Shown here: piece by piece, positions 6,401 to 64,000 of the stretch
Layout: each line of letters opens with the position of its first letter
Position numbering within the stretch: position 1 is the stretch's first letter
Source: Zingiber officinale
Lineage: Eukaryota; Streptophyta; Magnoliopsida; Zingiberales; Zingiberaceae
DNA: 64,000 bases
NCBI RefSeq assembly: GCF_018446385.1
Contig: NC_056004.1
Coordinates: 30,262,492-30,326,491 of the forward strand
Direction: 5' to 3'
Position numbers and translations under genes: made by a program
The notes under the pieces: model-generated
Databases searched by the model: none
What the model saw: the letters and a program-made list of their open reading frames with translations, nothing else
Told to the model about the DNA's origin: nothing

Positions 6401-9040
6401 CAGCGGAAATAATAAACACTCGGTCGGTTTACTTGGTTCACAACTGCTATTCCAAGGCTCACGATCCCTTGGACTGTTTCCGAATGAGTAATCCACTAAA
6501 GTTCTCTCCGAAAAGCTTTCGGAGAAGGAAGAAAGCTCGTACAAGATGTGAGGAAGATGTAATACATTGCTATCACCTTAAATAAATGCAAGTAATAGAT
6601 TATATCGACAACGTAAAGTAGAATGTAGGCATAGGTTGTCGGAGAGTCTCTCTACGATTTGAGCAGCAAGAGAAAAGGTATTGAAAAGAGTGTTGAATAC
6701 TGAGTCTTGGATCCCGAGACTTCTTTTATAGGCTTCATCCGATCGACTGGAAAACTGAACCCTTCCGGTCAATTGAACTTCTATTAGGCGACTCGCCCCG
6801 CTTCTTTCTTGTTTGCTCCGGTCTGATCTAATCGATCCCGCAAAATTCGCTTTTCCGGTCGACTGAACCTATTTAGGCAATTGGACCCTAGGGGTTTCCT
6901 TTACTGTTCGATCCGATCATATCCATTCTATACTTTCCATATTTGTTCAGCCGACTGAACCTCTTTATTTTTAAAATTTGATCACAATCTGGCCGTGCTT
7001 ATCTACCTGGATCGGTCAACCGAACCATCATGTTCGGTCAATCAAACCCTTCGGTCAACCTAGTTTTATGTTTTCTGCAAAACAAAGTTAGTACAACAAG
7101 AATAATAAAAGTAGTCTTACAAAACAAAGTTACAAACAATATGATTATACATGAGTTAATCTTGATAGTTAGGACTGTTTGATCTCGACTTAAGACACTT
7201 CTGTTGGTTTTTTTTCAGTCAGATCAACACCTAAGGTTGTCGCAACTGGGACACGTCTTCACTACCTTCCGGAATGAAAGGTCTCTTCAGGACTTACCTT
7301 ACTTATTTGCTAAATTTTGGTCTAATTGACATGTTTGAACTTCTTCTGCTCATCAATGGTCGATCGACCTGATTTACTAAGACTTTTATGCAACACTGAA
7401 TTAACACAATAGATACAAATAGTAAAAGTAAAACTGTGTTAGCAATATTTATAAAACACTAGTCTAATCGATTGTGTGGTCACACTTGCTTGGAGTTCAC
7501 TTCTCTAAGACTTCTCACTACTTAAGGTTCACTCCCTTAGCATTTTCATCTTACTTGTAGTTCACTCCTCCGCGACTTCTTACTTGCCTAAGTCAACTTT
7601 GACCTATGAGAACTCTCTTGCCTAGGCAACTGTCAGGACTTCTACCTTTGCCTAGGTTAATCTTGATCTATCAGGACTTCTATCTTTGCCAGACATTCGA
7701 TCAATTTGGACCTAATTTGACTTTTCTATTGTCAAGCATTTGATCAACCTTGACCTGCTTGAATTTTTCCCTTTGCCTAGGTCAGTCTTGACCCGTGACT
7801 TCTAATTAACTTGGTCGACTATATCTTATTAAACATATTGGCAAACAAACATCAAAGCTTTGGAGGTTGCATCAACATGAACTTCCTCTAGTACATTTAC
7901 CGTCATTATCAACATACATGCATTGTTTGTTACATTAGAGTTTTTTTTAATAATATTTAATATTTAATATTGTTAGTTCTATTCAATTTCTTCTGTCAAG
8001 ATATGCAAGTTTCCTTAAGATTTCGAAGTACATCACTAACAATAATGCCCCATATGATTCCTCTTAATTGCAGTTAAAAAATATTATCCTTCAAGACAAC
8101 GCCTTACCCTTCCCCTGCAAGCTGGATGTAAAGGAAAACCAGTGGTGCTTATCCCAAAGAAAAAATTAGCAGACTATTGCGATGGGAATGCGAACAACCT
8201 AACTGTTGTTTTCAAGGATTTAGGTGTTCAAGTTTCTTACAGCACTCTTTTCTTCTGGGAGTATTTGGGTCCTTTAGTTATCTATCCAGTTTTCTACTAC
8301 TTTCCAGTGTACAAGTACTTCGGTTATGAGGGTGAACGTACTATTTACCCAGTCCAGACATATGCGTTGTACTATTGGTGCTTCCATTATTTCAAGCGTA
8401 TTCTGGAGACTTTCTTTGTTCATAGATTCAGTCATGCAACTTCACCTCTCTCCCATGTATTCAGAAACTGTGCCTATTACTGGACTTTCGGAGCATACAT
8501 TGCTTACCATGTGAATCACCCACTGTATACACCTGTTGGTGATTTTCAAATAAAGATTGGATTCACATTTGGGTTGATTTGCCAGCTCGCAAACTTCTAC
8601 TGTCATCTCATCTTGAGGAACCTCAGAAGCCCTGATGGTAATGGTGGTTACCAGATTCCTCGTGGGTTTTTGTTCAACATAGTGACTTGTGCAAACTACA
8701 CCACAGAGATCTATCAATGGCTTGGTTTCAATATGGCTACTCAAACAATACCAGGTTGTGTGTTCCTTGTAGTGGCTACTCTCATTATGACTAACTGGGC
8801 CCTTGCAAAGCACCGGCGACTCAAGAAGGTAAACTAACACCATTCTCTATTGAGTGCAATTACTTTATATGCTTAGTTTCTGAAATTTAAATCCAGTTAC
8901 TATATGTCTTGCATGGTCCGATGCAAATTACATCAGTGTTATGTCTGTCTCTGATCTACTTTTTGTTGCAGTTGTTTGATGGAAAAGAGGGGAGACCTAG
9001 GTATCCACGACGATGGGTGATACTCCCTCCGTTCATGTAA
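3421..9040 (+). CDS. ECR: Very-long-chain trans-2-enoyl-CoA reductase, four exons
   Basis: Exons 3421-3489, 3754-3793, 8074-8828 and 8972-9040 join at GT-AG sites and give 310 residues, the usual plant length for ECR/CER10. The enzyme does the last, NADPH-dependent reduction of the ER fatty-acid elongase cycle, which feeds cuticular wax, sphingolipid and seed-lipid synthesis. The N-terminus ([13 protein letters not shown], then [10 protein letters not shown]) is the ubiquitin-like cytosolic domain. [13 protein letters not shown] and [18 protein letters not shown] lead into a multi-pass membrane region. The C-terminal steroid-reductase domain holds [33 protein letters not shown] and [11 protein letters not shown], and ends [11 protein letters not shown]. 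No damage is seen in the exons. Intron 2 (3794-8073) is unusually long because of insertions. The family call is very secure by residue pattern. Confidence 0.96.
4635..5730. mobile_element. Foldback MITE, Mutator-type (9-bp TSD), in ECR intron 2
   Basis: The 1096-bp block begins gggttaataactttaag and ends with its near-complement cttaaagttattaaccc. Most of the rest is also inverted, so the element can fold into one long hairpin. It is flanked by perfect 9-bp direct repeats ATTAATCTA (4626-4634 and 5731-5739); a 9-bp duplication is the Mutator hallmark. There is no transposase. The left arm has about 100 extra bases, partly GC-rich, bounded by two copies of acatgcaccagtataaa (near 4916 and 5014). 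It lies wholly in the intron and should be spliced out. Confidence 0.9.
6345..7877 (-). mobile_element. Degraded solo LTR-like block (Ty1/copia type) in ECR intron 2
   Basis: The sequence after a G-run resembles other LTRs of this window read on the minus strand: tttacttggttcaca, a 'gtaggcataggttgtcgga' phrase shared with the LTR at 50630-52072, runs of ggtcgactgaac-like words, and repeated tcaacctTGACCT phrases. It ends gcatcaaca at 7877. I found no matching target duplication, so both edges are approximate. Old and eroded. Confidence 0.55.
6354..6377. repeat. Poly-G run of 24
   Basis: An uninterrupted run of 24 guanines at the left edge of the LTR-like block in intron 2. Related LTRs have a G-rich aggggggtgaatag phrase at this place, so the run probably grew from it. 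Its exact length may be unreliable in the assembly. Confidence 0.85.
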
Positions 9041-24314: not shown

Positions 24315-25878
24315 GGGTGTTTTTTATTTCTTTAGTATTTTCCATCTCAAATTTTTTAAGTAATTCTTTGGTATATTTTTGCTGATAGATATAATTTTCC
24401 TCATTTGTTTGTTTGATTTACAATCCTAAAAAGTAAGTTAATTTTTCTACTAGACTCATTTCAAATTCTTGTTCCATTAAATTTATGAATTCTTCTAAAA
24501 ATTCTGAATTAGTTGAGCCAAAAATTATATCATCTACATAGATTTGAATTATAAATATGTCCTCTTTTATTAATTTAATGAATAGGGTTGGGTCAATTTG
24601 ACCTTGGTTAAACCCTTTGGATATTAGGTAAGAGGTTAACCTTTCATACCAAGCCCTGGGTACTTGCTTAAGTCCGTATAAGACTTTCTTTAATTTAAAG
24701 ACATAGTCAGGGTGTTCTAGACATTCAAATTCGGGTAGTTGACCTACATAGACTTCTTATTTTATTAGCCCATTTAGAAAAGCGGATTTGACGTCCATTT
24801 GATACAGTCTGAACCCTTTATGGGTTGTATAACTGAGTAGCATTCTAATAGACTCTAATCTAGCTACTGGAGCATAAGTTTCATCATAGTCAAGTCCTTC
24901 AACTTGATTGAACCCCTTAGCGACTAGCCTAGCTTTATTTCCGGTAATTTCCCCAGTTTCTCTTAATTTATTTCTAAACACCCATTTTGTTTCTATTATT
25001 TTCTTATTTTTGGGTGGTGGTACTAAGTCCCAAACTTCATTACGCTTAAATTGAGCTAGTTCCTCTTGCATAGCTATGACCCAGTTTGGATCAAGTAATG
25101 ATTCAGCTACGGTTTTGGGTTCAATTTTTGAAATTAGAGAAATTTGACTTAGGTTTCTAAAAGATGACCTAGTCGGAACCCTTAAGTCTGGATCACCAAT
25201 TATTTGATTAATTGAATGATTTAGGTTGACTCTTATAGTTCTAGGCGGTGGTTGATTATCTAAAGGTTCTTCTTCTTCTTCGTGATCATTGATTCCTTCT
25301 TGATTATTATTTTCTTGAATAAATTTAATTGGCTGAGGTTGGGTTTGTTCTAGGTTTTGTTTGGATTCCTCAAATTTTACATTAGTAGTTTCTTCAATTC
25401 TTAATGTAACCTTATTATATATTCTGTACCCCCTACTGTTTAGGGAGTATCCTACAAAGATTCCATCTTCTACTTTAGAGGTGAATTTCCCTAAGTGTTC
25501 TCTTGTGTTTAAGATAAAGGTTGGGCACCCAAATACTTTAAAATATTTTATATTTGGTTGCTTATTATAATATATTTCGAAAAAAGTTTTGTTATGTGTT
25601 TTATTTAATGTTGTTCTATTTTGCATATAGCAGGCTGTACTGACAGCTTCTGCCCAAAAGTATTTGGGTAAATTATATTCATTCAGCATAGTTCTAGAGG
25701 CTTCAAGTAAAGTTCTATTTTTTCTTTCTACTATTCCATTTTGTTGGGGAGTTTTAGGACACGAAAATTCGTGATGATATCCGTTTTCAAGAAAAAATTT
25801 ATTAAAGTTGTGATTTTTAAATTCTCCCCCATTGTCACTTCTAATTCTTTTAATTTTAAGGTCTTTTTCATTTTCAAC
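24315..25878 (-). pseudogene. Reverse transcriptase and integrase C-terminal region of element D
   Basis: Read on the minus strand it has the integrase C-terminal part ([40 protein letters not shown]) followed by copia RT ([62 protein letters not shown]). Broken fossil with a few breaks. Confidence 0.85.
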
Positions 25879-26583
25879 TTATTTGCAAAAGTTTGTAAAG
25901 TTTTCAAAAGTTTCATCCTTATTTTTTAAAAATTTTACCCAAGTGAACCTAGAATAGTCGTCTATTATTACTAGGCAATATAAATTGACATTTATTGATT
26001 TGACCCCATGAGAGTCAAATAAGTCTAAGTGTAGAAGTTCTAGTATTGAGTTGGTTTGAGCTTGATTAGTAGATTTTGTTTGTTTACCTTGTTGACAAGC
26101 ATTACATATTATTGAGTCTAAGTTAGGTAATTTTGGTAAACCTCTAATTAATCCATTTAATTTACTTATATTTCTGAAATTTGTGTGTGACATTCTTCTA
26201 TGCCATAACCAAGTTTCTTCTTTTTGTGTTAAATAACACTTAATTGAAGAAGTGGTTAGGTTAATTGCATAGATGTTATCTTTTCTAAACCCTTTTAGAC
26301 TTATCTTAGGATTATCTAGGTGTTTGATTAAGTATTCCAAAGATAAGAACCTAACCTTATACCTAGTGTCACACAATTGATTGATACTTAGGAGATTATA
26401 CTTGAAATTTTCAACAAGTAGAACATTTGTAATAATGAAGTCAATTTTAAGCTCAATATTACCTATACCAATTATCTTGAGTTTGTCATTGTTTTCAAAG
26501 GCAACTGTTCCTAAACTTTTGTAGGTAAGTTGTGTGAATTTGGTGTGATCCCCAGTCATGTGTTTAGAGCAACCACTACCCAA
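25879..26583 (-). pseudogene. Protease end and integrase N-terminal/core region of element D
   Basis: Contains GSGCSKHMTG (end of the protease region in copia polyproteins), the integrase zinc-binding pattern WHRRMSHTNF...CNACQQGK, and the core start LLHLDLFDSHGV ... VIIDDYSRFTW. Order PR-INT-RT-RNH confirms Ty1/copia. Broken fossil. Confidence 0.85.
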
Positions 26584-26669
26584 GATTCACTTTGTTTCCT
26601 ATAATAAGTAGAGTTTGAAGGTTAGCCTATGTTTTGATTCCAATTTTGTTTAGGTAAAACTAATAGTAA

Positions 26670-26697
26670 AATTATTATTATTATTATTATTATTATT
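26670..26697. repeat. (ATT)n microsatellite
   Basis: About nine uninterrupted TTA/ATT units inside element D. Confidence 0.85.
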
Positions 26698-26699
26698 CA

Positions 26700-26990
26700 A
26701 GGATTTTTTTAAATGATTTTTAAAATTTTAAAATAATTTTTAAAATAATTTTAAAAATAATTTTAAAATTTTTTAAAAGAATTTTTAAAATAATTTTTAA
26801 AAGTTTTTAAAAGAATTTTTAAAGTTTTTAAAATAATTTTTAAAATTTTTAAAGTTTTTAAAAGAATTTTTAAAGTTTTAAAAGAATTTTTAAAAGTTTT
26901 TAAAATAATTTTTACAAGTTTTTTAAAAGAATTTTTAAAGTTTTAAAAAGAATTTTTAAAATAATTTTTAAAGTTTTTAATTTATTTTAA
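26700..26990. repeat. A/T block of TTTTTAAAA repeats
   Basis: Roughly 290 bases built almost only from variants of aatttttaaaa and agtttttaaaa, irregularly repeated about 20 times. It separates the pol-like and gag-like regions of element D. Confidence 0.8.
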
Positions 26991-27684
26991 TTAAATGAAT
27001 TAAATTTAATTTAATTTTATTTAATTGAATTAATTTTATTTAATTAAGTCCTTAGTTATCTCACCTGATCTACGTTTTCAATCAGGGAATCCTATAATTT
27101 TGTGAGATGAATTAGGTTCAGTTTTAGAGTTTTGTTTAACTTTATGTTAGATTCAGGTTTAGCTTTGGGCTCAACAAATAAGCATTCTTCGGATAAACTT
27201 CTGGGCTATGGTGAGTCACTTGGACATCATTAGAGTAACTATGCCTTCGAGGTTTTCCAAATAGTCCTATCCACTGAACTTAATACAAAACCTTGGTCTA
27301 ACTGGTTAGGATCCATAAAGGGCTTTGGTTAGTTCTACTTAGCTAAATGTATCAGGTCGAAGTCATATCTTCCTAGACATGTATAGACTAAGCTTTCCTA
27401 ACATACTATCATCCAAAACTTCACCAGTACCATAGGTCAAGTTAAACTTGGTCCCTTTCTAACTAGTTCTAATTACTCTGCCGAGTAGGATTTTTGAATG
27501 TGCCAGCTATTCTGGAGTCTCCCCCTGAATTATTGGCCTTTATTTTTTAGTTTTAGTTTTTTGTTTATGTCTGTTACTTTTATAATTATATTTGACTTGA
27601 TGATATTCTAAGTTTTGGTGGGTTTTAAAATATTTAGATTTTGAATTTATTGGTCTAGGTTTGTATTTTGGTTTTTGAATTGAT

Positions 27685-29449
27685 TTATTTGATTTTATAT
27701 AATATATTTTTTTCTTTGGGTATGCAGTATTGGTTAAGTCCTACTTGCGTGGTTAGACACACTTTCGGAACCCAAGCTTTACTTGATTGTTTGTGTTGGG
27801 TTATTAACGATTTAAATGTTTTATTTGAACTTGACTTGTAGCCAAGTCCAGTTTTGTTGTAAATTGTTTTTTGATTATTTAAAATTATATCTAAATTCTT
27901 AGATCTTGTTGTAAATTTTTCTAAGAGATCATTTAATTTATTAATTTCTATTTTTAGTGATAAATTTTCCTCCTCAAGTGTTCGGTCTTGAGTTGGATTT
28001 GGATTTGTGATTTGTTCCTTGAGGTTTTTGATTTTCCTCAAGCAACAGTTTGTTTTCATTTTCTATTGTAATTAATTTCCTATTTAAACATGCAATAATT
28101 TTAATGAATTTTTTATTCAAATTAAAGTTTACCTCTTCGGGGCCTTAGGAAATGAGTACGGAGTCGTGACTCGATTCGGGTTCAGACCCGTCTTCCGATT
28201 CTTCCTCCGATTCTTCTTCGCGAGCCATTAGCGTGAGGTGGCTCTGGTGCTTCTGATCTTCGACCTCCGATTCTTCTAAAGAAGAGTCGTCCCAAGTTAC
28301 TTTGAGAGCTTTCTTCTTGGATGTCTTCGTCTTGTCGCTCTTCAACCTCGGGCACTCATTCTTGTAGTGACCCTTCTTGGTAAATAGCATTAAAATAAAA
28401 TAAATTAGATTAGCATGCTTTTTACCATAATTCAAGGGGGTAGGCTCAATAAATGATACCTTGGGTTTTATCTTGGAAGCTCCCCCTTGACTTGTGCTTC
28501 CTCCCTTGACTTTAACCGCTTTCTTCCCTTTAGGACATTGACTTTGGTAATGCCCTTTTTGATTGCAGGAAAAGTACACAATGTACTCCTTACTCTTCTT
28601 TGTTATAGGAGCGGTCTCCTTGGGCTTCTCCTTGCCCTTTGTTGCCACTTGGCCCTTCTTCTTGGCCAATTTAGGGCACTTATTTTTGTAGTGCCCATGT
28701 TCCCTACACTCAAAACATATAATATGATTTTTATTTTTAATTGAAATATTTTTACCTTCGTATGTAGGGATGACACTTGATCCTCCATTTGATGTCTCTT
28801 GATTTTTGGAGGATGCATCATCTTCTTCTCCACTTGACTCAGATGTAGAAGCTTTTCCTTCTTCTTGATCCGATGTCAACAAGGGTTGCTCCCCCTCAAT
28901 TCTAGAGGTGGAGACTTCTTCATCTTCATCTTGTACATGGAACAAAGAGTATGCTCCCTCTTTGCCCTTTTCGTTGCATTCCATTGAAGATGAAATTTCT
29001 TAGACCTCTTCTTCAGAAATTGAGCATCTCTCAACTTCCAAGTCCTCTTCCTCTTGGTCTTGATCCACTGAATCACCCTCTTTAGATTCTGCTTGATTTG
29101 GTACAGTGGAGGGGATCTCATGAATCTTTGCCAATTTGCTCCAAAACTCCTTGGCATCCTCGAATTCTCCAATTTGAACCAAAATATTGCTTGGCAATAA
29201 ATTGACCAATAGCTTGGACACTTTGTTATTTGCCTCGCTCCTTTGAATTTGCTCTTGGCTCCATTTGCTCTTGTTGAGGATCTTGCCTTTTGAATTTTTT
29301 GGAGCTTCGAAGCCTTCCATTAGAGCAAACCATTGCTCTATCTCCATCATCAAGAAATTTTCAATTCTTGATTTCCAAGAATCGAAACTCATCATAGTGA
29401 ATGGTGGATGCACCCTTGTGTCGAATCCGAGTCCATCTCGGAATTCCAT
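27685..29449 (-). pseudogene. gag of element D
   Basis: SIRE-type copia gag on the minus strand: SFDSWKSRIENFLMMEIEQW and KLLVNLLPSNILVQIGEFEDAKEFW at the N-terminus, an acidic middle, zinc knuckles CFECREHGHYKNKCP and YFSCNQKGHYQSQCP and a related third one, then a coiled-coil C-terminus ending with a WVPKVCL-type phrase. It lies about 110 bases inside the primer site. Broken fossil. Confidence 0.8.
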
Positions 29450-29570
29450 TTGAAGTTGAGCTTTTGATGAATTCTTGACTTTTTAATTTGCTTCAACTTC
29501 TTCACCCTCTAGCCTTATTGCCCCTTCCGGCTATGATTCCAGTAAAGAGCGACTTCGCTCTGATACCACT

Positions 29571-31990: not shown

Positions 31991-33230
31991 CGAAAGTTTC
32001 ATGTAGAGGAAAATAAATTCTAAACAACATACAAGCATAAATATCAAGCTAACTCCATACACTACAAGAAATTTTGGATTTAACCACACCAAATAGACAA
32101 TAGTTTTTCAAGACATTGTTGTCTTTTTTCCATGTAACAACAGTTTTATTGAAAACTGTTGTTGTTCACCATAATGTTTTTTAAATAACAACAGTTTTTC
32201 AAAAAACTGTTGTCTAATGTGTGTCAAAGACAATAGTTTTAAAAAACTATTGTCTTTTAGTGTTGCTTATGTAATAATATACAACAGTTTTATTAAACTG
32301 TTGTCTATTAAATGTTGTTGAATCCTAAAAACACAACAATTTTTTTAACTTCATGAAAAAAAACCTAAAACCCACTTCTCTGTGACTCTTCAACGAACAA
32401 AAACCTATCTCCGACTCCTCCTTCGCGACTCCTCCGCGAAAGAGCTCCTCGTCGCTCTCGCTGCTTTGCCTTTAAAGTGTTAGCGCATCGACTTTTCGGC
32501 GCTTCCTTGGGAGGTAGAATTTTTTTTTAATTTTTAGAAATTTTTTAGAATATAAACGGAGTCGGTATGACACATTTAATAGGGTAAATCGATTAAATTT
32601 AGAGAAAGCCTATTTCGAGTACCAATAAAGTGGGAGTTTATTTATTTAATAACCTACATATATAAATCTAAACAATCTCATTTTTTTCCCCATTCCTCCT
32701 CTTCTCTTGCCGATCTCACCGTCATCGTGATCTCCTCTTCATTGCTGACCTCCGACGCAGCCGGCGCTGCCCTCACATTCCCGAAGACACAGCCATCGCA
32801 GCTGTCGAGGGTGCTGCCGGTTACTCCCAATCACCGCCGCCCTTTCCCCTCTCCCGTGCCCTAGTTTCCCCTCTCCCGATCTTGCCGACGTCGAGCTCCT
32901 CTGTGAGATATCGAAAAATTAATTAAATAGGGTTATTTAATTAATAGCCTTATAGAATTTTTTCAGAATTTTTAGAATTTTTCTGGAAATTTTTCGGAGC
33001 TCATGCGACGTGTTTTGAGGGGACAAAATTATGGGTACGGATAAGGTCTGTTTGGGATACCATTTAAATAAGGAAATGTTTAATTATTTATATTCCTTTT
33101 CTTATTATTTCTCCCTAACGCCGATCCCGATCCGAGTTCCTCACCTCTCCCGAACCTTTTCCTTTCTTCCCTTCTTCCTCTGTTCTTTCTCGCGGACAAC
33201 ACTAAGGCGACGGGCAACAGAGTTCTACCT

Positions 33231-33611
33231 CCGATGATTGTCGACGTCGACTGGTAGCATGTCGCCGGAGCTTGCTAGAGATCGAAGCCCGGATCATCCT
33301 GATCTCTTCTTCTTCTCAACTCTTTCCACCCGAGCCCTAGGTTTTTCCGTCGCCGAGTCCTCCCTCTCCTCTCTCACGCGACGCCGACACTGCCGAGCTC
33401 TCCCTTCCTTCGCAAAGCCGTCATCGCCTTGGCTTGAGGACAGATCGACAACGCCGTTGATCGAGGGAGTGCGTAGGTTCCCTGTGCTCCGATTTCCCCT
33501 GGATCGTCGCCGGCGTATGAGGTATAGCTGTGCCCTAATTTTTGTTCTGGTGCCGTGGGATCAAGCTAGAGCCATCCGATCGCCGGCGTGAGGTTGCCTT
33601 AGGGCTTCGAA
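33231..33611 (+). other. GC-rich leader inside the CACTA element, possible captured 5' exon
   Basis: C/T-rich sequence like a plant 5' UTR, ending cttcgaag|gtaagc at 33611, a good splice donor. The next acceptor is the LIP5 exon at 33731. The frame 33238-33591 has no domain I recognise. It could give a chimeric leader for a captured-gene transcript. Confidence 0.35.
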
Positions 33612-33730
33612 GGTAAGCAACCAGCCCTAATATCTGAAGAGAATCACCATTGAATTTCGTTTTAATACTCTTTTTATATTTTGGATGATAATTTGCTTCA
33701 TTTTGATTCAGATTCTGTGATTTTGCACAG

Positions 33731-35316
33731 GACAAAAAGTCATTGCAATTAGGGCCTGAGGACAACCTTTATGTGGAGGGTTTTGCATCAAATCTTTTTG
33801 CAAAGGCAGATAAGCAAGATCGTGCTGGTCGTGCAGATCTGTATGTGAAGGAACATGTTTCTTTATCATTTTCTTATCTATCTAGGCATATCTATTAAGA
33901 CATTTCACTGGCTTTTCTTAGTCTCATAATGGTTGGGAAATTAAGTACTAGTAATATTACAGGAATACTGCAAAAACTTTTTATGCTGCAAGTATCTTTT
34001 TTGAGATACTATATCAATTTGGTGAACTTCAGCCTGAAGTAAGTTTTGCACTTTGCCATTTTATAAAGAACTATTTTTTTGGTTCAATATGAGCAAGCAG
34101 ACTAATTCTGAGCATACTCTACTTTCCAGATTGAGCAAAAACAGAAGTATGCAGTTTGGAAAGCTGCAGATATAAGGAAAGCTCTTAAAGAAGGCCGGAA
34201 ACCTGAACCAGGTCCTCCAGGTGGTGATCCTGATCAATCAATTTCCTCAGGCCTCTCGAGCTACACTTATGTATGCTCTATCACCTGTATTTCATAGCCA
34301 AATAAAAAAAAATACAGAATGTTTCCTTTTTATGAACCATAACATAATGTTGTGGAGAGGCTTTTCTTTTGCTTGGTTGGCCTAATAATGTCATACTTTT
34401 TTTTTATCTTTTGTTAGGGCACACAACCAAGCGATGGATTGTCATCTAGTCAGCAATTTGACAATGCATCGCCTCAGCATATACACAAGGTCAATTTGAA
34501 TGTGTAATTTGTGCATCGCTTGCTACATATTTCTTGCTACAGAATTGTTGAATCTTGTCTATTTTGTTTTTCTTTTTCTTTTCCTGTACAGAATTCAGAA
34601 GGAAGTGAGCATTTTGTGGATAATTATAGAAATGCTGATTTACCCCCTAAAAATGCTGGTGAGCCACAGGGTTTTAGTCAGGCACCACAGGATTTAAATC
34701 TAGAATTAAATCGTAAGTTAGATTAAATTACAGTTACTTTATCATTTCTTAATTTTTTTTTCTAACTTACATTTGCAATATTTGCATCTCGATTCATTTG
34801 ATTATGTTCACTTTGTATTCAACATGAAGCTAAAAGGTGTTTTGTACATATTAAAGACTCTTTGGTGGTTTTTTTAGTTTCAATCTACTGCTCTTTTTAG
34901 CATCTTTATCCTACTATAATGTTATTCTTTAAGATTATGTTGCATTGATTTCTAAAAGTTGCATGACATCTCTCTACTCTGCCTTCAAAACTAACGATTT
35001 ATGTTGTTTCAAGTAATTACTGTAGCCATTCCTACTATTGTTTCAAGAGGTTACCATTTATGTTACATAGATAATGCTTTTTGCACTTTTGTTAGATGAC
35101 TATATCAAATGATTTTTATGGTTATGTAACATTTATGCAGTGCAATTAGAATCACGCGTACAGTTTAGTTTCTAATTTGTAATATATATCTTTATTCGAA
35201 TAGGTGTCCTCAAGAGTATTGGGAAGAATGCTGACAAGCTAAAAAAATGGAGAGACTTTAACAAATTAAGGAGCACTAGGAGCTGCAATCCCTCCTCTTC
35301 ACCGACATCTAAGTAG
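33731..35316 (+). pseudogene. LIP5: Captured fragment of LIP5/VTA1 (ESCRT cofactor) gene
   Basis: Exon-like segments 33731-33840, 33963-34038, 34130-34270, 34418-34489, 34592-34712 and 35204-35316 have GT-AG borders and keep one frame. They read DKKSLQLGPEDNLYVEGFAS, NLFAKADKQDRAGRADLN, TAKTFYAASIFFEILYQFG and KYAVWKAADIRKALKEGRKP, the middle of the VTA1/LIP5 N-terminal domain and its start of linker. LIP5 stimulates the AAA-ATPase SKD1/VPS4 in multivesicular body sorting. The N-terminal exons are missing. The C-terminus, which in LIP5 is the VPS4-binding VTA1 domain, is replaced by an unrelated basic tail (KSIGKNADKLKKWRDFNK) ending at 35316. Introns are retained, so capture was from DNA and not through RNA. 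Any product would be partial. Confidence 0.88.
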
Positions 35317-36219
35317 AAAATCTCGTGTTATATTGTTCTACCTTTGTTTTAATAGTGTTATCATTTTGTTGGTTGCTTATGAAATTTCTTCAGAATGTTA
35401 TAGATATTATTTTTGAATGTTAAAAAATTGTATATTAAATTTTATTTTGAAATTTAGTATTTTAAATGATTTATAATATTAGAAAATTGTGTATTAATTT
35501 TTTTTGTTTTTTATCTAAAAAAGACAACGATTTTTCACCGTTGTCGTAGATAGTTTAAAACTGTTGTTAAAGACCCTGTTATTAAAGGTAGACGCTCAAA
35601 GACAATAGTGAAAAACTGTTGTCTTTGAAGGAAAAGACAACAGTTTTTCACCGTTGTAAAAATGTTATCTTTGCCTTTAAAGACAACGGTTAAAAATTGT
35701 TGTTTTTGAGCATCCCTTTTAACAACACGGCATTTAACAACAGCTCTAAAGGGGCTACGACAACAATGAAAAACCGTTGTTGTTAGGCTTTTTTCTTGTA
35801 GTGATATCATATCATAAAGGAAATCATGAGCATGCTAGATTTAGTTTAAAGCTTCCTTAGACCCTAAAATTCTCCATGGCCAAACCATAAAGAAACATAT
35901 GTCTAGATTTCAAGCAACATCAAAACATGATAACCCTGAGTTAGCTTTATATCCTATCCTAAGGAGAGTCATGAACATGTTATACTAAGTTTTAAGCTCT
36001 CCTAGGTCTTTCATTCACATCATGACCGAAACCCTATAGTGTAATACCACTAGGTTCCAACACATACAAGCATGCAAACACTTAGAATCTTTCATAGCAT
36101 TTCATAAAGAAGGTCATGAGCATGATAACCTAAATTTTAACCTCTCCTAATCCATCATTTCAAGTCTTGGCCGAACACCTTAGGAGCATGAAATTAAGTT
36201 TTAAGCAACATACAAGCAT

Positions 36220-41849: not shown

Positions 41850-44496
41850 TGTTGGTGCAACCTTAGGTCAAGGTTGACCTGGGTGACCCGACTCGAGTTG
41901 ACCTGACTCGAGGTATATTTTGATGTTTGATAAGAATAGAGAAGTTGTATTTTGATGTTTGACAAGAATAGGAACTTTAGGGATTGTGGGTGCAACCTTT
42001 GGTCAAGGTTGATCTGGTTGACCCGACTTGAGTTGACCTGATTCGGGAAGAGTCCAAGTATGGAGACTTGGCACGGAAAGGTCCAAGCAGGGAGCTTGGC
42101 ACGGGAAAAGTCCAAGTATGGAGACTTGGCACGGAAAAGTCCAAGCAGGGAGCTTGGCACGGGGAAAAGTCCAAGTATGGAAGCTTGGCATGGGAAGTCG
42201 GAGAGGGCTCGGTACCTCGTTCTCCGGACTAGGTCAGAGAGGGCTTGGTAACTCGTTCTCTGGACTGGATGGAGTCGGAGAGGGCTCGGTAGCTCGTTCT
42301 CCGGACTAGGTCAGAGAGGGCTCGGTAGCTCGTTCTCTGGACCGGACGAAGTCGGAGAGGGCTCGGTAGCTCGTTCTCTGGACTAGGTCAGAGAGGGCTC
42401 GGTAGCTCGTTCTCTGGACCAGACATGGAAGTCGGAGAGGTCTCGGTAGCTCGTTCTCCGGATTAGGTCAGAGAGGGCTCGGTAGCTCGTTCTCTAGATC
42501 AGGAAGGCTTTAGGTTTAAGGCTGGGAAATTGGATCGGTCTGCTGACCGATCCAGTGATACACTGGGTCATCTGATCGATCTGATGACCGATCAGAAACC
42601 AAACAGATTGGGAGAAGGAATGGCCTGATCGGTCCACAGATCGATCAGGGCTCTAGCAACCAACTCTTTGTGAGAGTTGGGATCAGTCTGGGCACCGATC
42701 AGCCTAGGGCCTGATCGGTCCACAGACCGATCAGGGATCGACAACAACTCTCTGTGAGAGTTGGGATCGGTCTGGGGACCGATCAGCCTAGGCCCTGATC
42801 GGTCCCATGGCCGATCAGACCCATCCTGGACCGATCAGGGTGGAGCCTGATCGGTCCAGGCCTAGCCGTTGAGACACAACGGCTAGATTTCTGTCTTCTT
42901 CTTCGCAGGTTTTGATATAAGGTGGAGGGCCTCTACTGTTGAACTCACTCTTCTTCTTCCTCCTTGCGATCTGAGCTTTGCTGAGCTCTTCATCCCTGAA
43001 GCTTCGTGTGAGCTTCCCTCGGCTGAGTTTCCAACTGAACAGTTGCTGCTGTGCTGTGGTTGGCATCCGTGAAGTTGCTGCTTCATCAACAGTCGACAAG
43101 AAGGCAAGCAAACTAGTGTTTTTACATTCATATTGTTCTTGGCTTCTTGCTGTATTTCTTGTACTCCGATCTTGCTGTTGCAAGAGAGATTGTGGCGAGG
43201 TTTCTCCACCCAGAAGGAGTTTTTATTAGTCGGTTTTCCGGGGTCTCATCCACCGACGGATATATAGGATTCGTCCACCTTACGGACAAGCCGAGGAGTA
43301 GGAGTATCATCTCCGAACCTCGTTATATCGTCGCATTTGAGGTTTGATCTTCTCCATTTTCGTTTCTACTTTTTATTTCCGCTGCGCTAACTCAAATTGT
43401 AGGAAGAAACGTGAACTTTGTTGGAGCAATCCCAATGGTCCGCGGGACCATGTGTTTTGGTGTTTGGGCAAAAGGTTTAAGTTAGGATTACCCTTGTTAT
43501 TTGATATGTGTACTTGAGTTGTGCAGGACTGCAGGTGACACATGTGACTCAGGTTGACGGCTTCGGGTCCGGTGAAGGATGGAGCATCCGAGGGACCGTG
43601 GACAAGGCAGCAAGGACAAGGGCCGAGGGAAGCGACTTCGAGGCATACGCGAAGGATGGCATTGGGGACGAGCCGCGGGCTTGGATGCATCCGAGGGACG
43701 AGAGCCAAAGGAAGTAGGCTTGAAGGCAAGAGGTCAAGGCTGCAAAGAAGAGTCAAATGAGTCGTGAGGGTACGAGTGCATGAGAGATTGTACTCGGAGT
43801 AAAATCCTAGTTTTAGGGTTTTACTGTAGCGGCACTGTAGCAGTACTGTAGCGCACTGTAGCAGTTACTGTAGCGTACTGTAGCAGTCGACTGGTGTATG
43901 GACCAGTCGACTGATGCACTGTAGCAGAGCCGTTGAGATAGCCGTTGGGCTGGCACCAGTCGACTGGTGCAAGGACCAGTCGACTGGTAACGGGCAAATC
44001 AGGTTCTGATTTGTTCCAAGCTCTATAAGAAGGAGCTTGGTATGGCCGGCCAAGGCGACGAAATTAGACTTGGTTAAAGCCTAATTAGTAGTCATCTAGT
44101 GCTCTAGCAATCCAAGTGTTCTTGATCGAGTTGTGGCGAGGTTTCTCCACCGACAAGGAGGATTGTGCTAGCCGGAGTTTCCGGGGACTAATCCACCGAC
44201 GGATTGAGGGATCGTCCACCTTACGGACACGCCGTGGAGTAGGAGCTTTATCTCCGAACCACGTAAATCGACGCGTGTTGGTTTGCTTGCTCTTTCTTGT
44301 TCTTTGTATTAGCATTTAGCTTTCATATTCGTATTTGTATTCTTTGTATTCCGCTGTGCTAACGAATACGTAGGAAGCAATCGATTTGGGGGTGCCGTCT
44401 ATCCAACCCCCCTTCAAGCCGGCCACCGATCATCCAACAAACTTGGGGTCGGCTATTCACACCCCCCTCTCTAGCCGCTATCCGAAGGTCCTAACA
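41850..44496 (+). repeat. 5' LTR of element C (with insert)
   Basis: About 1620 bp of its own sequence plus solo LTR I. It holds tandem copies (about 34 bp) of gtcagagagggctcggtagc at 42190-42500, then repeated tgatcggtcc..ggaccgatca palindromes at 42530-42870. Confidence 0.9.
43419..44439 (+). mobile_element. Solo LTR I inside the 5' LTR of element C
   Basis: Starts tgttggagcaatcccaatgg, ends ccgatcatccaaca, flanked by perfect TSDs AACTT (43414-43418, 44440-44444). The 3' LTR of C shows the empty site gtgaacttggggtcgg. It is related to the LTR of element A (gtttgggcaaa, gtggcgaggtttctccaccgac) and has four cagtcgactgg palindromes at 43880-43990. 1021 bp, no internal region. Confidence 0.93.
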
Positions 44497-44558
44497 AGTG
44501 GTATCAGAGCGAGGTCGCTCTTCGTCGGATTAACACCCGGGGGAGCACGAGCTAGAGA

Positions 44559-46029
44559 ATGGATCAACTTGGAGAAGACGTCACGATTCCACCCTTCTAC
44601 GATCGCGACGACTTCACGTTTTGGAAGGTAAGAATGAAGTATTTTTTTATGACTAACCTAGTAAATTGGAATTGTGTACAAGTAGGTTTTATTCCTCCGG
44701 TGGATAAAGAAGGAGAACCTCTCGAGAAGAAGAAGTGGACTAAGGAACAAATCCACCAATCCATAATCAACGACGAGGTAACGAAAATCTTTGAATTTTC
44801 ATTACCTAATGATATCTTGTGTAAGATAGGTAGATACAACAATGCCAAGGAGTTGTGGAACAACTTGGCTAAGTTTCATGAGGAGAGCTCCAATTCAAGT
44901 CATGAAGAGGAGTCAAGTGAGCCAAGTAGCTCACATCATGGAGGTATGGAATTAGAAGTTGAGGGCTACTCAACATCTAAGGAAGAAGAGGAGGAGAGTT
45001 CTTCTTCAAGAATGAAGCAAGAAGAAGAAGCCTCTACCTCCGGAAGGGATGAAGAAGAGAGCTTATATCCATCCTCAACCCTAGGTAACTCAAGCAACTT
45101 AATTTCAAGTAAATTACATATAATGTGCTTTGAGTGTAGGGAATATGGGCATTACAAAAGTAAATGTCCAAAGAGGATTCGAAAGACTCCACCGGCACCA
45201 AAAGTCAAGGAAGCCGGAGTCCCGATACGCAAGGGCAAGGAGCATGTGGTGTGCTTCCAATGCAAGCAAAGGGGACATTATAGGAGTCAATGTCCAAGGG
45301 GGAGGCAACCTCACAAGGACAAGAGACCAAGCACATCTATGGGGGGAGCTAAGGCAAACCCTAAGGTATCCTTTAAGGCACATTCTTGCAATTCTAATAA
45401 GACACATGCTAGTAGTTTTATTGCAATTGTCAATAATGATAAGCATGAGAACCATAGAAACCGATACATGTGCTTAGGTGCCAAACATGTTAGCCTAGAT
45501 AAGGACAATGCTAGAAATGCCAACCCTAGAGTTAACTCATCTAAGGTTAAGGAAAACCTAGATAGGAATCCCAAAACAACTAGACATATGCCTAGGAATA
45601 CCTCAAAGAAAAATGGAAAATTAAAGCTTGAGGTATTAAAGAAGGAAAATCAAGTCTTGAGGTCAAGACTTGATAGAAAAGACTCTTAAGAATTTGGAGA
45701 AGTCAACTCTAGGGTCTAAGGGTCAAAAACCAAAGCCCAAGGACATGAGAGGTTTGGGTCACAAACCTAAGTCTCAAGTGGTCAAGCCCGCTTATCATAA
45801 TGTTCCATTCGATTATGGAACAAGACCTAGGGCTAAGAAGACCATCACCAAGGTCACAAGGGGAGTCACCCCTAGAGTTGATCTTGATGAGTCCCAAATG
45901 ACCAAGGCTTTAAAGCCTAGGAGGGTCATTAGGAGGGTTGCTAGGGAAGTCATCCCTAGTGAATATTTAGTGAACCCAATGAGCTCAAATAGGTATTGGG
46001 TTCCTAGGAGCGTGATTCCTTCACGCTAG
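44559..46029 (+). pseudogene. gag of element C
   Basis: SIRE-type gag beginning MDQLGEDVTIPPFYDRDDF about 50 bases after the primer site. Parts: FWKVRMKYFFMTNLVNWNCV, EFSLPNDILCKIGRYNNAKELWNN, an acidic serine-rich segment, zinc knuckles CFECREYGHYKSKCP and CFQCKQRGHYRSQCP, and a C-terminal part ending near YWVPRSVIP. Mostly open, with at least one break. Highly similar in plan to the gags of A and D. Confidence 0.85.
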
Positions 46030-47783
46030 ATGGTTTAGGGTGTGCCAACCTTAATTGGATAGGTAGTTAACCTACTCATGGCAAAAGGTGGCATTTTAGA
46101 AATTTTCAAGGTGTAATCAAGCCTTGAAAATGAAATTAAAAATTATTCCTAAGGTGATTAGGATGTGCCAACCACATTTGAGAAGTTTTCTAGGGTCAAT
46201 CTAATTGGCACATAGTGATCCAAAAAATCTTTAGTATATGACTTTAGGTCTATTACACTTAAGAATATAGAATTTATGGCAAAATGATCAAAATTATCAA
46301 AAATGACAACTAAGGCTAGAATTAGGTATTTTCTATACCTTTATATGTTATTTGCCATACATTGTTTGTCATATGTCACGTCATGACATCATATTTATTT
46401 TATTATCATTTGAAATGTCATGATAATGCTTAGGTTAGTTATATGTCATGCCTTATTTAAGTTTCATACTTTATGCCATGACATCATGACATTGGCACTT
46501 ATTTCCACTTATGATATTATTTTATGCCATGTCATCATCTCTTGCATTTATGATCAATTAAATTGATTTAAGGATAAAAACACAATTTGATATGGAGATC
46601 TAATTATTGTTTAGAAAATGCATGAGAACTTAGCTTAAGATGACCTAAACCCATATCTCACATCAAAATTAACTTGGATGTGTTTGATACACCTTAGATG
46701 TGTGTGAGATATTAGGATTATGAGTTAGGATCAAGGTGCATAGTTCTTGTACCTAGATGAGCCTAATTCGAAATTGAGGATCATAGGGAAAACTTGTGTA
46801 CAAGTCATGTACATTTAGTCCTAAGATTGTGGTCCTAAATTGAATGGTTTAAAATCATTTCAAAATTGTTTTGAAAAACCTTGATGAAGTTTTTCTAGTG
46901 ATAGCATTCATCATTGAGCAAGTTGATACAAAGATGGATTAACCTTGAGCTATTTCAAAGTCTTTCGAACTTTGTATCAAGATTAAAAAATGGGAGTTAT
47001 TTTCATATAAAACTATTTTTCCATGACAATATATGTTATGAGGAATGTATCCTCAAAATTTTACAATTTTTGGAATTTTCTGTGATTTTTTAGGGGTTTC
47101 TGAATTTCGGGAGAAAAATCAGAAATCCTTATCAGAGAGTTGTGGACCGATCAGAGAAGATCCTGATCGGTCCAGGGAAGTCTGGATTGGTCACTGGACC
47201 GATCCAGGGCAGTGAGGATCGGTCTGGTGACTGATCTAGTGAAGTTCTGATCGGTCTGGTGACCGATCAGAGCGTGCCAAAATGCTGATTTTTCGACTGT
47301 TGTCTGAAATTTCAGCTATGAAAGTTGGTGTTTTAGATTTCTAAAGGGTTGAAACTCTCCAAGACATTGTTGGTGGAATGGTCAAGGAGGAGTTAACCTT
47401 TAGGGGGAGTTTTACCTAATGGTCAAGGGGGAGATGACCTTTAGGGGGAGTTTTTACTCGTCAAGATTTCTGAGGATGAGTGATATGGGATTATCACTAA
47501 GTTGACTGTGGATTTTAGTATCAAGGGAGAAATTAAGGGTTTCAATGAAAGGTATGAGACTTTCATTAGGAAGAAACTCTTGACCTTGATTCACTCTTTT
47601 TGATGTGTGTCAAAAAGGGGGAGAATGTCTAGAGAATGTTCAAGGAAGAACATTGGAGTTTGGGAAGAATGTTCAGATAATGTTCGAGGAAGAACATTGG
47701 AGAACTATTGGAAAACCTAAGTTAGGTTATCGGGTTAACCTAACTTGATTATGGCTTTTGCCAAACATCAAAAAGGGGGAGAT
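46030..47783 (+). other. Noncoding 3' internal region of element C
   Basis: No protein domain is visible in any frame. It contains copies of the gatcggtctggtgaccgatc palindrome word (47150-47270), which also occurs in the LTR, ggtcaagggggag phrases, and the polypurine tract at the end. Confidence 0.7.
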
Positions 47784-49441
47784 TACTGGTGCAACCTTAG
47801 GTCAAGGTTGACCTGGGTGACCCGACTCGAGTTGACCTGACTCGAGGTATATTTTGATGTTTGACAAGAATAAAGAAGTTGTATTTTGATGTTTGACAAG
47901 AATAGGAACTTGGGGGATTGTGGGTGCAACCTTTGGTCAAGGTTGATCTGGTTGACCCGACTTGAGTTGACCTGATTCGGGAAGAGTCCAAGTATGGAGA
48001 CTTGACACGGAAAGGTCCAAGCAGGGAGCTTGGCACGGGAAAAGTCCAAGTATGGAGACTTGGCACGGAAAAGTCCAAGCAGGGAGCTTGGCACGGGGAA
48101 AAGTCCAAGTATGGAAGCTTGGCATGGGAAGTCGGAGAGGGCTCGATAGCTCGTTCTCCGGACTAGGTCAGAGAGGGCTCGGTAGCTCATTCTCTGGACT
48201 GGATGGAGTCGGAGAGGGCTCGGTAGCTCATTCTCTGGACTAGGTCAGAGAGGGCTCGGTAGCTCGTTCTCCGGACTAGGTCAGAGAGGGCTCGGTAGCT
48301 CGTTCTCTGGACCGGACGAAATCGGAGAGGGCTCGGTAGCTCGTTCTCTGGACTAGGTCAGAGAGGGCTCAGTAGCTCGTTCTCTGGACCAGACGTGGAA
48401 GTCGGAGAGGGCTCGGTAGCTCGTTCTCCGGACTAGGTCAGAGAGGGCTCGGTAGCTCGTTCTCTAGATCAGGAAGGCTTTAGGTTTAAGGCTGGGAAAT
48501 TGGATCGGTCTGCTGACCGATCCAGTGATACACTGGGTCATCTGATCGATCTGGTGACCGATCAGAAACCAAACAGATTGGGAGAAGGAATGGCCTGATC
48601 AGTCCACGGACCAATCAAGGCTCTAGCAACCAACTCTCTGTGAGAGTTGGGATCGGTCTGGGGACCGATCAGCCTAGGGCTTGATCGGTCCACAGACCGA
48701 TCAGGGATCGACAACAACTCTCTGTGAGAGTTGGGATCGGTCTGGGGACCGATCAGCCTAGGCCCTGATCGGTCCCATGACCGATCAGACCCATCCTGGA
48801 CCGATCAGGGTGGAGCCTGATCGGTCCAGGCCTAGCCGTTGAGACACAACGACTAGATTTCTGTCTTCTTCTTCGCAGGTTTTGATATAAGGTGGAGGGC
48901 CTCTACTGTTGAACTCACTCTTCTTCTTCCTCCTTGCGATCTGAGCTTTGCCGAGCTCTTCATCCCTGAAGCTTCGTGTGAGCTTCCCTCGGCTGAGTTT
49001 CCAACTGAATAGTTGCTGCTGTGCTGTGGTTGGCATCCGTGAAGTTGCTGCTTCATCAACAGTCGACAAGAAGGCAAGCAAACTAGTGTTTTTACATTCA
49101 TATTGTTCTTGGCTTCTTGCTGTATTTCTTGTACTCCGATCTTGCTGTTGCAAGAGAGATTGTGGCGAGATTTCTCCACCCAGAAGGAGTTTTTATTAGC
49201 TGGTTTTCCAGGGTCTCTTCCACCGACGGATTGATAGGATTCGTCCACCTTACGGACACGCCGAGGAGTAGGAGTATCATCTCCGAACCTCGTTATATCG
49301 TCGCGTTTGAGGTTTGATCTTCTCCATTTTTGTTTCTACTTTTTATTTCCGCTGCGCTAACTCAAATTGTAGGAAGAAACGTGAACTTGGGGTCGGCTAT
49401 TCACACCCCCCCTCTCTAGCCGCTATCCGAAGGTCCTAACA
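47784..49441 (+). repeat. 3' LTR of element C
   Basis: 1658 bp, begins tactggtgcaacc (tgttggtgcaacc in the 5' copy) and ends aaggtcctaaca. Same tandem (48130-48470) and palindrome (48500-48840) blocks as the 5' LTR. Confidence 0.92.
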
Positions 49442-53784: not shown

Positions 53785-55855
53785 ATGGGTTCCCCGCCTC
53801 TTCTCTTGCTTTTCTCCTTCCTGTTAATGCTTCAACATGCTACCCGAGCCGAGCAAACCAGGCACTACAAGTTCAACGTATGTTGTTGTTCGTTGACGTG
53901 GGCGTGGATTAAAGTTTCATGGTTGATGTATATGTGTTCCTATTTGATTCATTGCAGATACAAATAGCAAATGTGACTCGGCTTTGCAGCACAAAGAGCA
54001 TCCTGACGGTGAACGGGCAGTTCCCGGGGCCAAAGATCGTCGCCAGAGAAGGGGACCGAGTCGTCGTCAGGGTGACCAACCATGTCGATCACAATGTCAC
54101 CATTCACTGGTATAATTAAGAAATAAATAGGGTAGTTTTAGTTAAGTGGCACCTGACTCGATGACATTTTTTGCCAGGCATGGAGTTCGGCAGCTGCGAA
54201 GCGGCTGGGCGGACGGCCCTGCCTACGTGACCCAATGCCCCATCCAAACAGGGCAAAGCTATGTGTACAACTTCACCATTGTGGGGCAAAGAGGCACTCT
54301 GTTTTGGCACGCCCACATCTCATGGCTCAGGGCCACCCTCTACGGCCCTATCATCATCCTTCCCAAGCTTGGTGTTCCCTATCCCTTCGGCAAACCCTAC
54401 AAAGAAGTCCCCATCATTCTTGGTATCGATACATATTCTATTGCACGTTTATTAACGTTGCTCGGATAATTAACTGATTTGCGTGCAGGGGAGTGGTGGA
54501 AGACTGATACAGAGGCCGTCATTAGCCAAGCTCTTCAGACCGGAGGAGCCCCTAACGTTTCAGATGCCTACACGATCAATGGCCTTCCTGGTCCCTTGTA
54601 CAACTGCTCAGCTCAACGTACGTACTATACCATTCTGATATAATTAGCCAATTGTTTGCCTATGATATCTACTATATACGTATTGGCATGCAGATACCTT
54701 CAAGCTGAAGGTGAAGCCGGGGAAGGTGTATTTGCTTCGCCTAATCAACGCTGCAGTCAATGACGAGCTGTTCTTCAGCATCGCCAACCACACCGTCACC
54801 GTCGTCGAAGTCGACGCTGGTTACGTGAAGCCCTTCGACACCGAGATCGTCCTCGTATCCCCCGGCCAAACAACCAACCTGCTCCTCCGCACCAAGCCCT
54901 ACTTCCCTGGTGCCATGTTCCTCATGAAGGCCAGGCCCTACGCCACCGGCCAAGCCACCTTCGACAACACCACCGTCGCCGGCTTTGTGGAATATCAGAA
55001 ACCCTACAGCGTATCCGCCTTCGACAAGAAGCTCCCGCTCCACAAACCAACCCTCCCGGCATTCAACGACACGTCGTTCGCGGCAAACTTCGCTGGAAAA
55101 TTGCGCACCCTGGCGACGGTCCGATTCCCCGCCAACGTGCCGCAGTCGGTGGACCGGCGGTTCTTCTTCACCGTGGGACTGGGGACGAATCCGTGCCAGG
55201 TCAACGGGACGTGCCAGGGGCCGAACGGCACCAAGTTCGCGGCCGCCGTCAACAACGTGTCGTTCGCGATGCCGACCACGGCTCTGCTCCAGGCGCACTA
55301 CTTCGGGCAGTCGAGGGGCGTCTACACTCCGGACTTCCCGGTGTACCCACTCCGCCAGTTCAATTACACCGGAACTCCGCCGAACAACACGATGGTGGGC
55401 AACGGGACGAAGCTGGTGGTGCTTCCGTTCAACGCCAGCGTAGAGTTGGTGATGCAGGACACGAGCATTCTTGGCACGGAGAGCCACCCGCTGCACCTCC
55501 ACGGCTACAACTTCTTCGTCGTGGGACAGGGCTCCGGCAACTTCGACCCCGCCAAGGACCCTGCCAATTTCAACCTGGTGGATCCGGTGGAGAGGAACAC
55601 CATCGGCGTTCCGGCCGGCGGATGGGTGGCCATAAGATTCCTGGCCGACAATCCAGGTAAATATATTCGGAGCGAAATTTAATCAACTAATTGTTGGTAA
55701 TGGATTAATTAATCAACGTAGGTGTGTGGTTCATGCATTGTCACATCGAGGCGCACATGAGCTGGGGCTTGAAGATGGCGTGGCTGGTCCTCGACGGGAG
55801 CCTTCCCAGCCAGAAGCTGCCTCCTCCGCCGTCGGACCTACCAAAGTGTGGATGA
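53785..55855 (+). CDS. LAC: Laccase (multicopper oxidase), six exons
   Basis: Exons 53785-53877, 53958-54109, 54178-54422, 54489-54617, 54694-55656 and 55722-55855 join at GT-AG sites into 571 residues, the usual laccase size and intron number. A hydrophobic N-terminal signal peptide ([22 protein letters not shown]) marks a secreted apoplastic enzyme. The copper-binding blocks are complete: [44 protein letters not shown], and [21 protein letters not shown] with the His-Cys-His of the type 1/type 3 sites. Many N-x-T/S sites suggest glycosylation. Plant laccases oxidise monolignols to radicals in lignin polymerisation, here supported by AC promoter motifs and a miR397 site. Exons 3-5 are GC-rich against AT-rich introns, as is common in monocot genes. 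No damage seen. Subgroup (LAC4/LAC17-like or other) not resolved. Confidence 0.96.
54743..54763 (+). promoter_or_regulatory. miR397 target site in laccase exon 5
   Basis: aatcaacgctgcagtcaatg(a) differs from the perfect complement of miR397 (recalled as catcaacgctgcactcaatga) at only two of 21 bases. It encodes the conserved LINAAVNDE segment, the known miR397 site of plant laccases, so post-transcriptional control by copper-responsive miR397 is expected. Confidence 0.85.
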
Positions 55856-62529: not shown

Positions 62530-64000
62530 CATTTGAAAAATTCCCTCAAGTTCTAGACTCCCGAGCATTCGCCCGGGTTTCAAGCGAGCATGCTCTTGCG
62601 GATTCAAGTTCCAAACTCCCGAGCCTTCGACCGAGTTATAAGCAAGCATAATTTCATGCCTTCAAGTTCTAGACTCTCGAGCATTCGACTGAATTATAAA
62701 CGAACATACTCTTGCACTTTCAAGTTTCATACTCCCAAGACTCTGACCAGGTTATAAGTGAGCATGCTCTCGTGCCTTTATATTATAGACTCCCTAATCA
62801 CTAGTCAAGTTATAAGCAAGCATACTCTCATGCCTTTATATTCTAGACTCCTGAGCATCTGGCTAGGTTATAAGTAAGGATGCTCTCGTGTCTTCAAGTT
62901 CCAGACTCCAAAGCCTCTGATCGGGTTATAAGTGAGCATGCTCTCGCGCCTTTATGTTCCAGACTCACGAACACCTGGCCAGGTTATAAGAGAACATGCT
63001 CTCTCTCCTTTATATTCTAGACTCCTGAGCATCCGACCTAGTTATTAGCGAGCTTGCTTTCATACTTTCAAGTTCCAGACTCCCGAACCTTCGGTAGGGT
63101 TATAAGCGAGCATGCTCTCATGCCTTTTTTCCAGACTACCGAGCCACCGGCCGGGTTATAAGCGAGCATGCTCTCACGCCTTTATATTCTAAACTCCCGA
63201 GCATCTAGCCGAGTTATAAGTGAGCATGCTCTCGTGCCTTCAAGTTCCAGACTCCCAAACCTCTGGCCAAGTTATAAGCGAGCATGCTGTCATAGCTTCA
63301 AGTTCTAAATTCCTAAGCCTTCCGCCGGGTTATAAGCGAGTATGCTATCGTGCCTTTATATTCCAGACTTCCAAGCCACCTGCTAAGTTATAAGTAAGCA
63401 TGTTCTCGCGCCTTTATATTCCAGACTTCCGAGCTACCTACCGGATTATAAGTATGTTCTCGTGCCTTTATATTCTAGACTCCCAAGCATTTGGCTGAGT
63501 TATAAGTGAGCATGCTCTCGTGCCTTCAAGTTTCAGACTCTCGAGCATCCGACCAGGTTATAAGCGAGCATGCTCTCGCGCCTTCAAGTTCCTGACGCTC
63601 GAGCCTCCGGTCGGGTTATAAGCAAGTATGCTCTCTCACTTTTATATAACAGACTCCCGAGAATCCGATCGGGTTATAAGATTGTATGCTCTCGAGCCTT
63701 CAAGTTCCAAACTCCCAATCCTCCGGTCGGATTATAAGTGAGCATGCTCTCGTGCTATTATATTTTAGACTCTCGAGCATCGCCCGGGTTATAAGCGAGC
63801 ATGCTTTTGCACCTTTATATTCAGACTCTCGAGCATTCGGCTGGGTTATAAGCAAGCACGCTCTCGTGCCTTTAGATTCTAGACTCCCACACATTCGGCT
63901 GGTTATAAACGAGCATGATCTCACGCCATGTTACAAGAGACTCCGACCATCAAGTTCTAGACTCCTGAGCCTCCAACCGGGTTACAAGAGAGCATACTCT
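62530..64000 (+). repeat. Tandem array, about 61-bp unit, roughly 24 copies, open at the window end
   Basis: Each unit reads roughly ttccagactcccgagcatccgg, ccgggttataagcgagcatg, ctctcgtgcct, followed by either tcaagttc or ttatattc, so two subtypes of unit alternate irregularly. Copies differ from each other by perhaps 10-20 percent. It sits between the pol tail of element J and its expected 3' LTR, the place where Tat/Ogre-type elements often carry tandem repeats. Confidence 0.9.

Follow-up and report, generated by a model that had tools for sequence, protein, structure and literature searches.

Why should exons of LIP5/VTA1, complete with their introns, lie at a site in the ginger genome whose surroundings consist of a tandem repeat, and are they still likely to encode a protein? 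The DNA analysed here, which we refer to as the window, is a stretch of 64,000 nucleotides from Zingiber officinale, and within it these exons are enclosed by the two ends of a single transposon. We consider it very probable that this transposon is an ordinary non-autonomous Pack-CACTA element, of the Tgm-Express1 or Tpn1 type, with a captured LIP5 fragment.

The element occupies positions 32060 to 35803 (3,744 bp, plus strand), its limits being set by terminal inverted repeats, a target-site duplication and a recognisable empty site. It opens at 32060 with the sequence CACTACAAGAAA (32060–32071) and ends at 35803 with the exact reverse complement of that sequence (35792–35803, minus strand), so that all 12 of the 12 bp match. 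Immediately outside these repeats are the two copies of the trinucleotide ATA, the left at 32057–32059 and the right at 35804–35806. When the window was searched for 12-bp CACTA-type ends spaced 200–20,000 bp apart and bordered by a matching 3-bp duplication, this pair was the only one found, and none appeared in 60 first-order Markov windows. A 12-mer, ACAACAGTTTTT, was found 25 times in the window when both strands were searched and two mismatches at most were allowed; 16 of these matches are inside the element, where ten fall in the first 300 bp, six in the last 300 bp and none in between. These mark the 5′ subterminal repeats (32086–32345), which form a foldback, and the 3′ subterminal repeats (35519–35786), which form a near-palindromic foldback that is 76% self-complementary. 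Inverted ends beginning CACTA, a 3-bp target-site duplication and a subterminal motif present on both strands are the features of the CACTA (En/Spm) superfamily; the 3-bp duplication is that given for CACTA elements (PMC8978399, PMC5105172), and the definition of subterminal repeats applied here is that of PMC8978399. The CACTA ends, subterminal repeats and ATA duplication described in the first-pass annotation are thus all borne out by the perfect terminal repeats, the duplication and the clustering of ACAACAGTTTTT.

No transposase family was matched when 13 element-derived sequences were compared with Pfam, a sample that comprised three sequences together with ten of the 35 stop-to-stop frames of at least 45 amino acids and so did not take in every frame of the element. 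Two matches in element frames fell below the cut-offs and were set aside (Chloroplast_duf, 0.02; Nodulin_late, 0.58). The lack of a transposase domain in the scanned frames suggests that the element is non-autonomous, and is what would be expected of such a member of the superfamily.

The site at which the element is inserted is a 144-bp tandem repeat. If the flanks are joined after removal of the element and one copy of ATA, their alignment to each of three adjacent 144-bp units runs on without a break, implying that the LIP5 sequence was brought in by the element and is not a gene resident at this site. Elsewhere in the window the element finds one weak match of 57 bp, and a tblastn comparison of the LIP5 frame with the remaining window gave no match. 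Scans for the parent gene or other copies returned nothing from prokaryote contigs and one locus from viral contigs (L001, 16 residues at 75% identity).

Other mobile and coding sequences are found in the same window. An LTR retrotransposon lies at 41850–49441, with long repeats that are 95% identical, TG..CA ends and a CCAAG duplication; among the frames listed, those of at least 120 amino acids on the plus strand between its repeats are 44556–45689, which has two zinc-knuckle matches, and 45661–46029, suggesting that pol may be missing. A Copia-type polyprotein is spread over several separate frames on the minus strand (24757–29482), two scanned frames of which (24757–26586) match RVT_2, integrase-related and gag-pre-integrase families, with further frames appearing gag-like by eye. 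On the plus strand, a 259-codon open frame at 8058–8837 has a Steroid_dh match (enoyl-CoA reductase-like) and could represent either an exon or a retrocopied gene; a frame at 1905–2798, which covers positions 55–89 of the 89 in the SOSEKI DIX-like profile, is probably a SOSEKI gene exon or fragment; and a laccase-type multicopper oxidase exon at 54666–55682 matches both Cu-oxidase and Cu-oxidase_2. The copia-type gag and pol frames, the laccase-type oxidase and the SOSEKI domain together suggest plant DNA. A minisatellite with a 58-bp unit, present in about 24 diverged copies, extends over 62546–63927, and Rfam gave no match over the window at the gathering score.

What, then, does the element carry? 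Five exons of LIP5 follow one another on its plus strand, namely A (33731–33840), B (33963–34038), C (34130–34270), D (34418–34489) and E (34592–34712), separated by GT..AG introns of 91–147 bp and joined in continuous phase through 520 bases without a stop. Exons A, B and C are each recognised by splice sites, phase and the Vta1 profile. Exons D and E, which have splice sites and phase and no profile match of their own, belong to the linker, and the middle segment of LIP5 in which they fall is described as less conserved (PMC9887185). In the spliced LIP5 frame, residues 10–83 match positions 72–145 of the 145-position Pfam Vta1 profile (E=7.8e-26), and comparison with human VTA1 (2lxl) gives 37 identities in 88 aligned residues (E=8e-17). 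Exon A can be placed within the gene because a CRISPR target that PMC9887185 assigns to exon 3 of the rice LIP5 gene matches it with three of 20 bases changed and the six amino acids unchanged; exon A is thus exon 3, and exons B to E would, from their order, be exons 4 to 7. The retention of introns indicates that the fragment was captured from DNA rather than from spliced RNA. With a fragment of a host gene lying between CACTA ends, the element has the composition that defines a Pack-CACTA.

The portion of LIP5 represented is the second MIT domain together with part of the linker, the first MIT domain and the VPS4-binding domain being absent from the frame. A functional LIP5 has tandem MIT1 and MIT2 domains and a C-terminal VSL domain, whereas here only positions 72–145 of the profile are covered and Vta1 is the sole Pfam match of the frame, which terminates in the segment F described below or at an intron stop. 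The earlier statement that the N-terminal exons are missing agrees with a profile match that begins at position 72. In yeast, MIT1 of Vta1 is reported to bind Did2, and MIT2 of Vta1/LIP5 to bind Vps60/CHMP5 (PMC5141497); SKD1/VPS4 is bound by the C-terminal domain of LIP5 (PMC9887185, PMC4092137). A product of the present frame should not, in the absence of this C-terminal domain, bind SKD1/VPS4, and the competition for SKD1/VPS4 that had been suggested for it is therefore unlikely, since just MIT2 is kept.

A sixth exon-like segment, F (35204–35316, plus strand), had been counted with these five as a last exon encoding a basic tail. Exons A to E stand, with their splice sites; F is in phase after E, and its open frame is at chance level. 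A pyrimidine-filtered AG acceptor with 36 or more open codons after it in the right phase occurred in 1157 of 2000 Markov sequences modelled on the region, and in 1484 of 2000 if any AG was accepted, so that the open frame of F is no evidence for an exon. In the real region 18 acceptors pass the filter; two of them open into frames of 30 codons or more, the longest being F with 37. The GC content of F (0.42) is above that of its flanks (0.26 and 0.24), and it may for this reason still be a captured exon. The tail matches no family in Pfam, and its best match in the PDB (E=0.4) was taken as chance; as a meaningful new C-terminus it is not upheld. Of the proposed replacement of the C-terminus, the absence of the usual VPS4-binding end is borne out, and the tail is indistinguishable from a chance open frame.

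Ahead of exon A is a GC-rich leader, given here as 33120–33612 on the plus strand (its start is arbitrary), which ends at the strongest splice donor of the element. As the first-pass annotation had it, the leader has a donor of its own: the site after 33612 (AAG/GTAAGC) is the best of the element's 197 GT sites when scored with a rough matrix. Such ranks are a weak guide, given that two of the five LIP5 donors, those of exons A and C, rank just 43 and 34 of 197. Also in the leader of the element, beside GC-rich patches, are two copies of an AT-rich motif, 77% identical (32515–32561 and 32953–32999), which may be the mark of a duplicated leader or of an older fusion.

The use of donor 33612 has consequences for translation. 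The leader contains a 110-residue open reading frame (33259–33591, plus strand), in the same frame as exon A, that is closed by a TGA at 33589–33591, and splicing from 33612 joins exon A behind this in-frame stop, 21 bases before the junction. All six junctions would then be 3′ of the TGA, and nonsense-mediated decay of such a transcript would be expected. Left unspliced, the LIP5 frame is closed by a TGA at 33704, and there is no methionine in the 210-residue frame from A to F. At ten GT sites, splicing could link an ATG in frame with exon A. Nine of these rank between 90 and 197 of the 197; the other, at 33045 (AAG/GTCTGT), ranks fifth and would define a short possible start segment (33031–33045, plus strand) from an ATG at 33031 (A at −3, G at +4), giving 215 amino acids without a stop. 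The rank of this donor and the favourable context of the ATG make translation of the LIP5 frame possible but do not indicate it. The prediction that a transcript would yield a LIP5 middle-domain protein is thus weakened by the missing methionine and by the stop reached through donor 33612; the route through ATG 33031 and donor 33045 would permit it.

The history that best accommodates these features is one in which a CACTA element acquired a piece of genomic LIP5/VTA1 DNA with its introns, comprising exon 3 and the next four exons, presumably from a parent LIP5 gene elsewhere, and was inserted by cut-and-paste transposition into the 144-bp tandem repeat, where 3 bp were duplicated. The breakpoints of the captured piece would be expected to fall at 33613–33730 and at 34713–35203. 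Its mobility would need a transposase supplied by another element. Transcription, if it occurs, could plausibly produce a chimeric spliced RNA, in which the LIP5 frame reached through the strongest donor would have no start, an in-frame stop and six junctions downstream, probably giving no LIP5 protein; the fate of such an RNA would be decay, by the nonsense-mediated route, or silencing. Two features argue against the reading as a captured fragment. The frame is unbroken over 520 bases and has GT..AG introns, as in a gene that is in use, although a recent capture explains the unbroken frame equally well; and there is a good donor, 33045, through which exon A would be linked to an ATG whose context is favourable.

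The locus could also be a source of silencing, the foldbacks and the LIP5 RNA being diced to siRNAs directed against the element and perhaps against the parent LIP5. The predicted foldbacks are strong: that at the 3′ end has an energy of −112.9 kcal/mol (z −13.1) and that at the 5′ end a z-score of −9.8, none of 200 shuffles being as stable in either case. There is precedent in maize, where captured sequences act as siRNA reservoirs according to the review PMC13317346, which describes this for Helitrons, Pack-MULEs and Sirevirus elements. Such foldbacks, however, follow from the ordinary subterminal repeats of CACTA elements. The strong ones are those in the transposon ends, and of the 16 inverted pairs listed, not one reaches into the LIP5 exons with either arm. 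Exon E itself has a 22-bp imperfect palindrome. This explanation is compatible with that of a Pack-CACTA element with a captured fragment, and taken by itself we regard it as unlikely.

Could the element instead have given rise to a chimeric gene of recent origin? Splicing at donor 33045 would yield a transcript that encodes, from ATG 33031, a protein of about 215 residues containing MIT2, which could bind ESCRT-III proteins of the VPS60/CHMP5 type and compete with full-length LIP5. The unbroken frame with its splice sites, the rank of the donor and the context of the ATG are all consistent with this, as is the fact that the profile positions covered are the MIT2 half, the Vps60/CHMP5-binding module in the account of PMC5141497. 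Against it, an equal or better pair of ATG and donor arose in 129 of 1000 Markov leaders, and the pair lies not in the GC-rich leader but in AT-rich sequence (GC 0.30) ahead of it. Donor 33612, which is stronger and through which the frame is closed by TGA 33589, would also have to be skipped, and we consider such a gene improbable. Still more so, and in our estimate very improbable, is an extension in which the element acts as a mobile cassette of exons, delivering an intact VPS60-binding MIT2 from ATG 33031 and donor 33045 as a dominant-negative dial, the basic tail serving as a novel terminus for targeting or binding; if true, a cassette with MIT2 only, devoid of MIT1 and the SKD1-binding end, would tune multivesicular-body formation. 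That the species' own LIP5 gene is resident here, broken up by transposons, is scarcely credible, because the exons are enclosed by the termini of a single element, without which the host repeat closes up, and a search of the window with plant LIP5 N-terminal and VSL motifs gave nothing convincing (best E values 0.78 and 0.34).

We conclude in favour of capture by a non-autonomous Pack-CACTA element, and the case is a clean one, in that a single sequence shows the ends and the duplication, an empty site internal to it and host exons that keep their introns. It is also a trap for annotation, since gene finders may label the CACTA-borne fragment as a LIP5 gene. Among the matches listed in a literature search, LIP5/VTA1 never occurred together with CACTA or Pack-MULE, and no capture of LIP5 was reported there.

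The capture of gene fragments by CACTA elements is, nevertheless, of a kind already known. The soybean element Tgm-Express1, as described in PMC1947982, is likewise a CACTA element with captured host fragments that retain introns and splice sites, and it yields chimeric, alternatively spliced RNAs from its captured exons. It differs in carrying fragments of five genes, compared with one identified gene here, and in its position within an F3H intron, its RNAs being driven by the F3H promoter, whereas the present element lies in tandem repeats. Non-autonomous elements of the Tpn1 family of Ipomoea nil, as presented in PMC5105172, share conserved CACTA ends, captured host sequence and AT-rich 3-bp duplications (all but one of 339), but have 28-bp terminal inverted repeats, a host of another lineage and other captured genes. 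The CACTA elements described from Chenopodium also carry captured fragments (PMC8978399). Also comparable are the Pack-CACTA elements of rice, maize and Arabidopsis, which are characterised as having host coding DNA between CACTA ends and no transposase (PMC8903248, PMC13317346), just as none was found in the frames scanned here. The set in PMC8903248 has 5-nt duplications, compared with 3 bp in the ginger element, and for these elements capture is proposed to occur through the fusion of neighbouring insertions (PMC8903248, PMC13317346).
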